34,162 nt of DNA. Origin: Dehalococcoidia bacterium (lineage in GTDB: Bacteria > Chloroflexota > Dehalococcoidia > Lucifugimonadales > UBA3495). The position numbers were made by a program, and so were the translations under genes. Positions 5,950 through 17,843 of the stretch are shown here, piece by piece (within the stretch, counting starts at the first letter, position 1; each line of letters begins with the position of its first letter). Under the pieces are notes generated by a model. It was not told the DNA's origin and ran no database searches. It saw nothing but the letters and a program-made list of their open reading frames with translations. The stretch is taken from positions 1 to 34,162 of the forward strand of contig JAJDWF010000135.1 of assembly GCA_022825745.1 (NCBI GenBank), written 5' to 3'.

Positions 5950-8609
<2,660 letters not shown>

Positions 8610-11268: not shown

Positions 11269-11709
11269 CTACGCGGGGCGGAACATGGGCAGGGAGATGT
11301 TGTCGTCGATGTCCTCAAAGACGACCTCCACGGCCATGCCGCACTGCACGGAGTCAGGCCGAATCTCGCCCTCGGCGAACTCGATGCCCACCAGCCAGGT
11401 GGGGATCTGCGGGCCTTCTTCCAGCGTGACCACGGCGGCGATGTAGGGAACCTTGTCCCGGAAGGCCGGCGTGGGGCCCCGGTGCACGATGGCGAAGGTG
11501 TGCAGCGTGCCGCGTCCGCTGCTCTGGACCCAGTCGGTGTCGCGGCAGAAGCACCCGGGGAACGGGCAGATGTCCCGGGGATAGAAATAGGCCTGGCCGG
11601 ACTTGACGCAGCGACGCAGCCACAACTCGTGGGCCTTGCACTTCTCCCAGTAGAAATCGGATTCCGGTTGAGGAACCGGCAGGGGAATCTGGGGGGCGGC
11701 CTGGGTCAT
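11269..11709 (-). CDS. DUF35-type zinc-ribbon/OB-fold protein
   Basis: A 146-residue protein of the DUF35 family: an N-terminal helix and ribbon (LRRCVKSGQAYFYPRDICPFPGC) followed by an OB-fold (GTLHTFAIVHRGP, PYIAAVVTLEEG, VEVVFEDI). These proteins normally accompany thiolase-like enzymes in acyl-CoA or polyketide metabolism and bind acyl-CoA. The ribbon is incomplete: Cys34 lacks its usual CxxC partner (Ser37), whereas Cys48 and Cys53 remain. No thiolase gene is beside it; upstream is the phosphotriesterase-like gene, downstream copA. GGGAG lies 9 bases before the ATG. Confidence 0.88.
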   Translation of the reverse strand: MTQAAPQIPLPVPQPESDFYWEKCKAHELWLRRCVKSGQAYFYPRDICPFPGCFCRDTDWVQSSGRGTLHTFAIVHRGPTPAFRDKVPYIAAVVTLEEGPQIPTWLVGIEFAEGEIRPDSVQCGMAVEVVFEDIDDNISLPMFRPA

Positions 11710-12776: not shown

Positions 12777-13214
12777 TCAAGTCAGATGGACGATCTCCAC
12801 GTCGCCCCAATGCCTTTGCAGGTGTTCGGCGACCAGGCGGCGATGGCAACGGTCGGCGGTGGGTTCGCTGCACAGCAGGCAACTGTCGGCGATTATATCC
12901 CGAGGGATGGCGGCGTGGATGAGCCGGCGTTCAATCTGGCGAGTGAATATCGGAACGTACTCGTCCCAGGTAACCTGCTTGCTGCGGTAGGCGTCCAACA
13001 GTTCATCGCTGGGCGCAAGCTTGGGCAAATGGATGTAGTCCATGCCGCAGAGTTCCCGCAGGAACCAGGCGAGGTCGTCCTTTTTGGAGAATCCGGCGAG
13101 TCCCGAGGTGTTGCGCCTGCGGATGTCCACCACGCGCTTGGCGCCCGAATCGCGCAGCAGGCCGAAAAACTGGGCGGCCGACTTTCGGGTAAAGCCGATG
13201 GTGTAGAGGTTCAT
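12777..13214 (-). CDS. DUF488-family protein (short)
   Basis: A 145-residue DUF488 protein. YTIGFTRKSAAQF opens the fold, VVDIRRRNTSGLAGF is the second conserved strand-loop, and LLCSEPTADRCHRRLVAEHL is the family signature with CHRR. The biochemical role of DUF488 is not established. Its ATG overlaps the stop of the preceding DUF488 gene as TGATG, indicating translational coupling. It shares the general motif plan with its neighbour but is clearly diverged and shorter, so the two are probably not interchangeable. Third gene of the dual-OB/DUF488/DUF488 operon. Confidence 0.9.
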   Translation of the reverse strand: MNLYTIGFTRKSAAQFFGLLRDSGAKRVVDIRRRNTSGLAGFSKKDDLAWFLRELCGMDYIHLPKLAPSDELLDAYRSKQVTWDEYVPIFTRQIERRLIHAAIPRDIIADSCLLCSEPTADRCHRRLVAEHLQRHWGDVEIVHLT

Positions 13215-13849
13215 CAGGCGGGTTCCCATTCGTCGCGGCCGGCGGCCGGCTTTTCGCCCACGTAGGCGAACTTGCGGGCCTGACGTTCCAGGGCCTCCAA
13301 GATTACGTCCTCGCGGGTGCGGAACATATCCCCTTCAGGCGGCAGTTTGTGGGCTTCCACCAACCGCGTCATGGCCTCGCCGTGCGATTCCAGCGCGCCG
13401 TCAGCCAGGATGTGCTGCACGGCAACGCCGCGCTCGGCCAACGCGCGCGCCACCAGCAGGGTGCGGTGACATTCCAGCGGTTCCTTTTCCGTGCAGAGCA
13501 GTGCGACATGACGCTCGTCGGCGGCGCGGATGACGCTGCGGATACCGTCGTCAAACTGCTCAGTGTCCGCTACTCGGTCGTACCGGACACGGCCATCAGG
13601 ATCATAGCAGGAACGGTCGGCGGGACGCCCGCCCAGTTCTCCGCCGAGATAAGCGTAGGCGATGCCTATGTCATCCAGCGAGTTTTGCAGGGCGTCGTGG
13701 TTGAAATGGGGAGTGTAGCGGCTATAAGGAGCGGAACGGACATCGATTATTTCATCCACGCCGTGGCGGACCAGCAGGTTGATGAACGTCTCCGGCGGAT
13801 GGTTGGAATGCCCGACGGTGAATACGGGGTATTGGGTTTGGCTCAACAT
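13214..13849 (-). CDS. DUF488-family protein (long)
   Basis: A 211-residue DUF488 protein: FTVGHSNHPPETF at the N-terminus, EIIDVRSAPYSRYTPHF in the second strand, and LLCTEKEPLECHRTLLVARAL, where Cys, Glu and the CHR triad are the conserved cluster. A C-terminal extension of about 50 residues after GALESHGEAM is absent from the shorter paralogue. It starts 11 bases after the dual-OB gene (AGGA before the ATG) and overlaps the next gene, so the three form a tight operon. Function unknown; the fold is compatible with a nucleic-acid or nucleotide-directed activity. Confidence 0.9.
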   Translation of the reverse strand: MLSQTQYPVFTVGHSNHPPETFINLLVRHGVDEIIDVRSAPYSRYTPHFNHDALQNSLDDIGIAYAYLGGELGGRPADRSCYDPDGRVRYDRVADTEQFDDGIRSVIRAADERHVALLCTEKEPLECHRTLLVARALAERGVAVQHILADGALESHGEAMTRLVEAHKLPPEGDMFRTREDVILEALERQARKFAYVGEKPAAGRDEWEPA

Positions 13850-13860
13850 TCAATCCTAAA

Positions 13861-14544
13861 TCAGGGTTTGATGATGGTGGCGATGAGCTTGTAAGCGTAA
13901 CCTTCAAAGGGTTCGCCAAGGCTGACGCAAAGATACCTTTCACCAACCTGATAATCTCCGTATGGCAGGCCCAACGAGCCGTTTTCGCTTTCGGGGTCGG
14001 TGATGCGAAAACAATAGTCGTCTCCATGATAATTGAATAAGCCACGCAGTATGGGGAAATCAGCGCTGGGGCGCAACGGTTCAGACACGGATACGGTCAG
14101 TGCGTCAACCCGAATCAGGCGCAAGGAGTCGTCAAGGTCAGCGGCGGCGTCAGTGGGAACCCGGTCGTTGTGCTCGCTGGAGGTGCTATGCCCGTTTATC
14201 CAGAGCGGCTCGTCCCCATCAAGCATGGTGCACAGGTCGTCCCAAGTGACCTGACCAGCTTTGTTCCATTGCTGATAGGGGTCGAGCAGCCAGTTTTCCT
14301 GCTGGTAGGATTTCCGATGTGGGCGGAGCAGCGGCACGTCAATAATGTCCAGCACCTGCGGGTCGCCGCCGTCGGGATAGCAGCGTTCCTGTGGCCCCAC
14401 TTCCTCATCATCCCGAGCGCTTACGGGACGAATCCACCCGCCGACACGATCTTCAGGCAGCAACTCCTTGCCGGCGACGCAACGGCCGCCCCGCTTGCGG
14501 GAGTTGGCGAGGCAGACGATGCGCTTGACAGTGGAGGTGGTCAT
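13861..14544 (-). CDS. Dual OB-domain-like protein
   Basis: A 227-residue protein starting VKRIVCLANSRKRGGRCVAGKE, a pattern I recognise from proteins annotated as dual-OB-domain proteins. WIRPVSARDDEEV and DIIDVPLLRPH follow in the first domain; the second has LGLPYGDYQVGERYLCVSLGEPFEG, the beta-rich end. OB domains suggest binding of nucleic acid or a nucleotide. AGGAG lies before the ATG at 14544; the earlier start at 14583 is weaker. First gene of an operon with two DUF488 genes, which suggests one shared process. Family call moderate, role unknown. Confidence 0.72.
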   Translation of the reverse strand: MTTSTVKRIVCLANSRKRGGRCVAGKELLPEDRVGGWIRPVSARDDEEVGPQERCYPDGGDPQVLDIIDVPLLRPHRKSYQQENWLLDPYQQWNKAGQVTWDDLCTMLDGDEPLWINGHSTSSEHNDRVPTDAAADLDDSLRLIRVDALTVSVSEPLRPSADFPILRGLFNYHGDDYCFRITDPESENGSLGLPYGDYQVGERYLCVSLGEPFEGYAYKLIATIIKP

Positions 14545-14823
14545 ACCCCTCGTCTCCTTGCAGTATTGCGCAACGTTACGCACATCTGGCGCATTGCCTC
14601 ATACGTCCAACAGAATCTTCCTGCGGCAATAATCGCGGTTGCTCTGGCGGAACTTGCGCCACGCGGCATCACGCTCGACTTCACAACATGACTTGGAAAA
14701 ACGTTTGCAACCTACTGTCAAGCGAGGAGTTCTAACCAACTGACCCGGCGGTTTAGCGCGCCGGCCGCCTTTGTAATCCATAATGAACCTCGCGTTGCAT
14801 AGCGATAATACTCTTTTGACTAC
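14545..14823. other. Gene-poor spacer (279 bases), probable promoter region of the DUF488 operon
   Basis: This is the longest gap in the window. It is less GC-rich than its surroundings and must hold the promoter for the dual-OB operon, but I could not pick out a convincing -35/-10 pair. A 60-codon frame on the minus strand (14599-14781) has no recognised similarity and is not called. Confidence 0.4.
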
Positions 14824-17271: not shown

Positions 17272-17553
17272 CTACGTAGTGGGGGATATTCTGGCGCTTT
17301 CGCGCTGGACATGCTCGCGGAGAGCCTGATTGATGCAGGTCTGATAGCCCTTGCCGTCAGAGGCGGTGAGTTTAAACCAGTCAATTATGTCGGCATCCAA
17401 CCGCAGGGTAATCTGCTGCTTGACCGGACGATAGAACACGCCGCGTCGAGCTTTTGACCAGTCCATTGGGACTTCGGGTATGTCGGTGGTATCAATCTCG
17501 TCGTCGGACATCGCGGCTAAGGCGGCGAGTTCGGCTTTTTGCTGGTCAGTCAT
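17272..17553 (-). CDS. brnA: BrnA antitoxin
   Basis: A 93-residue BrnA-type antitoxin. The N-terminal acidic half (MSDDEIDTTDIPEV) would wrap the toxin, and the C-terminal part KQQITLRLDADIIDWFK...GKGYQTCINQALREHV is the ribbon-helix-helix DNA-binding domain. The ATG at 17553 overlaps the brnT stop as TGATG; a GTG one codon earlier is possible. As in known BrnTA modules, the antitoxin with its toxin should repress their own promoter, and a palindrome is present there (17858-17879). Confidence 0.93.
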   Translation of the reverse strand: MTDQQKAELAALAAMSDDEIDTTDIPEVPMDWSKARRGVFYRPVKQQITLRLDADIIDWFKLTASDGKGYQTCINQALREHVQRESARISPTT

Positions 17554-17843
17554 CACAGGTATCCCTCCTCATAGTCCAATCTCTCTAATCTGGTAGCTTT
17601 TCGCGCGCTGATGATGCGCCCCGGCAGTTCGCCGATTATTGGATGTGTTTCCGGCCAAGTATGAACTACCAGCAGAGTAACGGATTGTACGCATCCAGTA
17701 GTTCGCCAACGTGATTCGTAAAGATAAGGGTCGGGTTGCGTTACAGCGAAGTGGTCGTAGAACACCCGCTGCGCTATTTCAAAGCCGACCTTGTGTTTGT
17801 CTTGGTTGATGCGGTCCTTGTCAGGGTCCCAAGTCCAACTCAA
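17553..17843 (-). CDS. brnT: BrnT toxin
   Basis: A 96-residue RelE-superfamily RNase toxin. The family pattern is complete: WTWDPDKDRINQDKHKVGFEIA at the N-terminus, RW in the middle, LLVVHTWPE, then RIISARKATRLERLDYEEG. BrnT toxins cleave mRNA and stop translation. The start is a TTG at 17843 with GGAGG 7 bases before it. brnT precedes brnA, the usual order. Residue-level oddity: the segment GCVQSVTLLVVHT is slightly different from the usual G-xxx-LVVVHT but no key residue appears lost. Confidence 0.93.
   Translation of the reverse strand: MSWTWDPDKDRINQDKHKVGFEIAQRVFYDHFAVTQPDPYLYESRWRTTGCVQSVTLLVVHTWPETHPIIGELPGRIISARKATRLERLDYEEGYL

Follow-up and report, generated by a model that had tools for sequence, protein, structure and literature searches.

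Three co-directional open reading frames, called on the minus strand, make up an operon within a 34,162-nucleotide stretch of Dehalococcoidia DNA (hereafter the window, meaning the whole of the stretch that was analysed; Table 1). They are tightly packed: 11 bases separate the stop codon of gene A from the start codon of gene B, whereas the TGA stop of B (13216–13214) and the ATG start of gene C (13214–13212) have one base in common within the sequence TGATG, and in this respect the description given in the first-pass annotation is exact to the base. Gene A matches the Pfam domain DuOB (PF22557; E = 1.3e-64), B matches DUF488 (PF04343; E = 2.3e-23), and C matches both DUF488 (E = 9e-19) and DUF488-N3a (PF22751; E = 1.9e-10); the scores of B and C against the DUF488 profile, 83.5 and 68.7 bits, respectively, both exceed the curated cut-off of 22.2. 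The assembly (2.99 Mb in 149 contigs) has no DuOB or DUF488 gene besides these three. The GC content is 0.585, 0.629 and 0.611 for A, B and C, respectively, and 0.66–0.69 for the flanking genes, and it is lowest in the gap upstream of the operon (Table 1); no match to a sigma-70 promoter consensus or to a terminator was found around the operon.

Table 1. Positions of the operon genes and associated features in the window
Feature	Position	Strand	Details
Gene A, DuOB (dual OB-fold) protein, PDC-M45A	13861-14544	-	227 aa; first gene of the operon
Gene B, long DUF488 protein, PDC-M45B	13214-13849	-	211 aa
Gene C, short DUF488 protein, PDC-M45C	12777-13214	-	145 aa; 150 aa from in-frame ATG at 13229
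B/C stop-start overlap, TGATG (translational coupling)	13212-13216	-	sequence
B active-site loop, C119-T-E121-x5-C127-H128-R129	13463-13495	-	alignment and model
C active-site loop, C120-S-E122-x5-C128-H129-R130 (150-aa numbering)	12840-12872	-	alignment
B tail peptide EGDMF, aa 172-176, degenerate clamp-like motif	13322-13336	-	alignment
Lower-GC upstream spacer, presumed promoter region	14545-14823	.	GC 0.527

The trio had been put forward as a candidate for an undescribed system; this does not hold, as the operon already corresponds to PDC-M45 of PADLOC and its OB protein to a named Pfam domain. PADLOC-DB (2023) lists PDC-M45 as a candidate defence system, the prefix PDC denoting computed phage-defence candidates, and in release 2.0.0 the three proteins match PDC-M45A (E = 2.1e-81), PDC-M45B (E = 1e-75) and PDC-M45C (E = 3.4e-60), respectively. 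All three components are there, encoded by adjacent, co-directional genes, and each match runs end to end. By these profile matches the operon is of PDC-M45 type, a candidate anti-phage module that has already been catalogued; there is no structural difference, and the window simply provides a further member, from a Dehalococcoidia genome, in which the clamp-like motif of B is degenerate (see below). An Escherichia coli homologue of A is named 'dual OB domain-containing protein' in RefSeq. A literature search for PDC-M45 found no paper naming it and no experiment on any member.

Folds, active sites and tails of the three proteins

The AlphaFold2 model of A (pLDDT 94.5) has a tandem OB fold, and the conserved residues of the protein are C22, G25, R39, E83 and S140. 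Its fold matches are all weak: the best is to LEF-3 with ssDNA (Z = 5.8), and RPA70 with ssDNA (1jmc) is matched with Z = 5.6 over 173 residues. Further matches are to HIN, CST, SSB and PriB, such that the match rows are dominated by DNA-binding OB proteins; weak as they are, they suggest that DuOB is closest to the RPA-type tandem-OB DNA binders. Solved structures related by sequence were found for none of A, B or C. Moreover, one Chloroflexota genus has two loci at which DuOB is joined in a single gene to a full RecQ helicase (with DEAD, Helicase_C, zinc-binding, RQC and HRDC domains), and B and C lie just upstream. The earlier suggestion that the OB partner points to an action on nucleic acid is thus well supported, both by the likeness of the tandem OB fold to DNA binders and by the RecQ fusions. 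Elsewhere, DuOB frames run into an NHL beta-propeller (locus L049, 9640–11223) and a glyoxalase/VOC domain (L058, 3664–4797), respectively; these are either genuine fusions or artefacts of the reading frame.

The two DUF488 proteins both appear to be intact. A Cys-x-Glu-x5-Cys-His-Arg loop and a D-x-R strand are kept in every aligned homologue (32/32 for B and 33/33 for C), so that B and C are probably both active enzymes. The catalytic Cys and its partner Arg are there in both alignments, and in the model of B (pLDDT 93) C119 lies at the end of a strand and R129 at the start of a helix; as B and C keep all of the catalytic residues, the idea that one DUF488 protein serves as a dead partner is ruled out. 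The model of B matches dual-specificity phosphatases (KAP, Z = 8.6, rmsd 4.0 over 135 residues; PRL-1, Z = 8.1) as well as methylases of the tetrapyrrole/diphthine type (CbiL, Z = 8.9; PH0725, Z = 7.9), values of 8–9 being only just above, or near, the level of common arrangements. Phosphatases and methylases of these kinds belong to the rhodanese–phosphatase superfamily. Burroughs and Aravind reportedly placed a RapZ-C-DUF488-DUF4326 clade within the rhodanese/tyrosine-phosphatase superfamily in 2023. B resembles that superfamily in its probable fold class and in the placement of a Cys after a strand and an Arg at the next helix, but where the superfamily has C-x5-R, the loop here reads C-x9-R and contains an additional invariant Cys-His.

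Stand-alone DUF488 proteins (YeaO-type and others) have the same domain and in some cases the C-x-E...CHR motif, but the examples examined are not encoded beside DuOB and their tails are without a Q-x-x-L-F motif. One of them, on an Acidithiobacillus plasmid (L086, 4456–6479), belongs to a compact cluster with carboxymuconolactone decarboxylase-like and DNA-3-methyladenine glycosylase genes, which is another DNA-linked context for DUF488.

In B proteins of the trio, the DUF488 core is followed by a tail of variable sequence, within or at the end of which there is often a short peptide such as QLSLF, QLNLF, QTDLF, QPDLF, QLSLL or QIDMF. The consensus of the bacterial sliding-clamp (beta-clamp) motif is QL[S/D]LF, with QLNLF in UmuC (PMC3716654). 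The pattern Q..[LMI][FWL] occurs in 17 of 32 trio tails in the first sample, against 1.7 expected from shuffles, and in 16 of 33 (1.6 expected) in a second, later sample; taken together, 33/65 trio tails carry it versus 0/16 stand-alone DUF488 proteins (Fisher p = 1e-4, uncorrected for relatedness). As a family, the trio B proteins therefore have a predicted beta-clamp-binding motif, which this enrichment suggests to be trio-specific. The window's own B has EGDMF in the motif position, with no Gln, and the model gives it an ordered tail (pLDDT about 97), for which reasons it is doubtful that this B binds the clamp. Among its relatives, several carry HGD[LM]F, NGD[LM]F or SGDMF, and those at L036, L041, L040 and L169 keep the Gln. 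Two haloarchaeal plasmid matches to B, sought as archaeal forms with a PCNA box, are stand-alone DUF488 proteins. No earlier mention of either the tail motif or the DuOB–RecQ fusions was found in a literature search outside which lay the PADLOC preprint and the paper on the rhodanese–phosphatase superfamily.

Distribution, transfer and genomic setting

DuOB occurs in 45 of the 400 Chloroflexota genomes sampled and in 39 of 393 from the window's class, two samples that overlap; the DuOB genomes listed in the class of genome G196 were all already within the first sample. The distribution of the trio is patchy, in that it is absent from the majority of genomes sampled from the order and class to which the window belongs. 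Both B- and C-type DUF488 genes lie beside DuOB in 28 of the 41 Chloroflexota loci examined in the first sample and in 33 of 42 further loci in the second (genes in these other genomes being simple ORF calls), usually in the order A-B-C or B-C-A, and the recurrence of the adjacent trio in dozens of genomes is far beyond chance. The first-pass annotation had proposed a search for the same gene order elsewhere, and considered a joint function unlikely if the trio proved to be confined to this genome or if DUF488 genes were usually alone. The order is indeed found elsewhere and the trio is not so confined. On the latter point, the picture is divided: DUF488 in general is often alone, being carried by 218 of the 400 Chloroflexota genomes and far commoner in stand-alone form than in the trio, but the B- and C-type proteins encoded next to DuOB differ in type from these common, often lone ones. 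The remaining DuOB loci are mainly contig ends or divergent DuOB subfamilies without an adjoining DUF488 gene (families f50 and f77; L067, 9546–10253, L065, 9400–10086, and similar), one of which adjoins a guanylate/adenylate cyclase gene; these divergent proteins possibly represent a separate DuOB function. Additionally, in three genomes of genus g66, two tandem DuOB genes precede B and C (L035, 1677–3170; L037, 8729–10251; L038, 9214–10768), a duplication of the putative DNA-reader gene.

The pairwise distance matrices of A, B and C are correlated with r = 0.64–0.71, compared with a maximum of 0.27–0.46 over 2000 permutations; common genome ancestry contributes to correlations of this kind. 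In the tree of B, the window and L033, a locus in a related Dehalococcoidia MAG, cluster with L036, which belongs to another class (support 95/88), and not with the Dehalococcoidia loci L043, L044 and L049, a placement incongruent with taxonomy. Because the proteins co-vary and their phylogeny departs from that of their hosts, A, B and C appear to travel as a unit; the view that the three genes act together is well supported by this co-variation and by the conserved gene order. Phages do not appear to encode them: no DuOB was found in phage records, matches to B in Gordonia and Microbacterium phages are distant only, and two scans of viral_contigs found no relatives of the trio.

At L033, the trio (78% DNA identity to that of the window) has the same neighbours as in the window, namely, an AMP-ligase and an isomerase-like gene upstream and a phosphotriesterase-family gene downstream (76–86% DNA identity). 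A recent accessory insertion at the window site is thereby ruled out; of the earlier notion of an accessory insert there remain the lower-GC gap, the patchy distribution and transfer over longer time scales. In both genomes the trio is resident and stable among metabolic and housekeeping genes. At L033, a small ORF without a Pfam match (7319–7660) separates the trio from the isomerase-like gene; it is absent from the shorter spacer of the window. Also near the trio, at 11272–11709 on the minus strand of the window, is a gene for another OB-fold protein, of the ChsH2 C-terminal type (PF01796) and unrelated to DuOB; such proteins are typical of acyl-CoA metabolism loci. A BrnT toxin/BrnA antitoxin pair (17275–17843, minus strand; Pfam 6e-20 and 1e-14) is located ~3 kb upstream of the trio, and the genes scanned around the trio in the window include no defence gene besides this pair.

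A suggested test for residence in defence islands gave a mixed answer: nothing of the kind in the window and an unclear result in Chloroflexota, but positive instances further afield. Near the Chloroflexota trios, PADLOC matches are few, come mostly from one locus (a IIG RM/SNF2-PLD pair) and are similar in number to those in control regions, so that a comparison of 147 neighbour genes with 142 control genes gives no clear enrichment. By contrast, A-B-C trios occur on plasmids of Agrobacterium, Allochromatium and Rhodovastum, and a B-C-A trio on a plasmid of Rhodothermus marinus; the Agrobacterium copy adjoins a CBASS cyclase and a HORMA gene, the Allochromatium copy csm6, csx16 and a type III-B CRISPR module, and the Rhodothermus copy cas1, cas2 and cas6.

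A variant operon in Enterobacteria and Acinetobacter retains DuOB and the C-type DUF488 protein in the same order, but has a DUF4326 protein in the slot of B, accompanied in E. coli by an mSLOG domain; no clamp motif was seen in the DUF4326 gene. It is present in 13 of 5426 E. coli genomes, and the two copies examined reside in islands that carry an integrase, one at ffs and the other at icd, the latter adjoining a prophage with mcrA. DUF4326 is a family reported within the rhodanese–phosphatase superfamily and predicted to process phosphates on ADP-ribose derivatives (PMC9503650), and a link of NAD signalling with DNA modification has also been predicted for it (PMC7824862).

Candidate function

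Our tentative reading, to which we would assign a probability of roughly 45%, is that the operon is an anti-phage module of the PDC-M45 type in which DuOB binds DNA and the DUF488 pair acts on DNA ends or nucleotides. The candidate defence role is based on the PADLOC listing, the CBASS, CRISPR and island settings, and the patchy transfer of the genes. In such a mechanism, DuOB would use its pair of OB folds to engage ssDNA or DNA ends, and B and C, as catalytically intact enzymes of the rhodanese–phosphatase superfamily, would act via a covalent cysteine intermediate on the termini so bound or on nucleotides released from these; phosphate transfer would be likelier than sulfur transfer. The outcome would be to spoil replication or ligation of the invading DNA. 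In many relatives, the tail motif would probably tether B to the replication clamp, and in some the RecQ helicase fused to DuOB would open the DNA. A fuller version, in which PDC-M45 is a replication-linked immunity whose pair of cysteine enzymes edits DNA ends, delivered to forks by the beta-clamp tail and the tandem-OB ssDNA reader, sometimes with a fused RecQ, is speculative and, taken as a whole, rather unlikely.

Against the defence reading stands the stable residence of the trio among metabolic genes in the window and at L033. Indeed, as the Chloroflexota copies show no clear enrichment of defence genes around them, a role in repair is a serious rival, even if a rather improbable one. 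Here, the trio would be a genome-maintenance module, an ssDNA-binding, clamp-recruited accessory of DNA-end repair or replication restart that cleans blocked or damaged host termini, and its patchy spread would be that of mobile repair genes rather than of immunity. The RecQ fusions, the clamp motif and the RPA-like fold of DuOB would suit this role, as would the housekeeping neighbourhood and the weak defence-island signal in Chloroflexota; what speaks against it is that the trio is missing from most of the genomes sampled in the same order and class, that the genes are transferred horizontally and carried on plasmids and integrase islands, and that in unrelated hosts they lie next to loci for CBASS or CRISPR.

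The DUF4326 variant raises another option, which we regard as unlikely: that DUF488 and DUF4326 process ADP-ribose-, NAD-derived or other nucleotide signals, with DuOB as a sensor or scaffold and not chiefly a DNA binder. The exchange of B for DUF4326 and the predictions made for that family are in keeping with this, and the mSLOG domain may hint at nucleotide signals instead of DNA ends; however, DNA is what the RecQ fusion and the clamp motif indicate, the likeness of DuOB is to tandem OB proteins that bind DNA, and no NAD-consuming enzyme was seen in the operons inspected. That the trio is a toxin–antitoxin-like cassette for plasmid or island maintenance, with one DUF488 protein toxic and its partner neutralizing, is very improbable despite the compact overlapping operon and its frequent location on small plasmids beside toxin–antitoxin genes, given the complete active sites in both DUF488 proteins of every homologue, the presence of three genes rather than two with no small antitoxin-like gene among them, and the long-term chromosomal residence of the trio.

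DUF488 is a very common bacterial domain whose function is not settled, and the trio places it in a DNA context. It also leads to clear predictions, namely, that DuOB binds ssDNA, that activity depends on the invariant Cys and that the B tail binds the clamp, and the natural occurrence of a close variant in E. coli makes these predictions testable in a standard laboratory host. If the proposed mechanism is true, it would provide an enzymatic role for DUF488 and an explanation for one of the PADLOC candidates.
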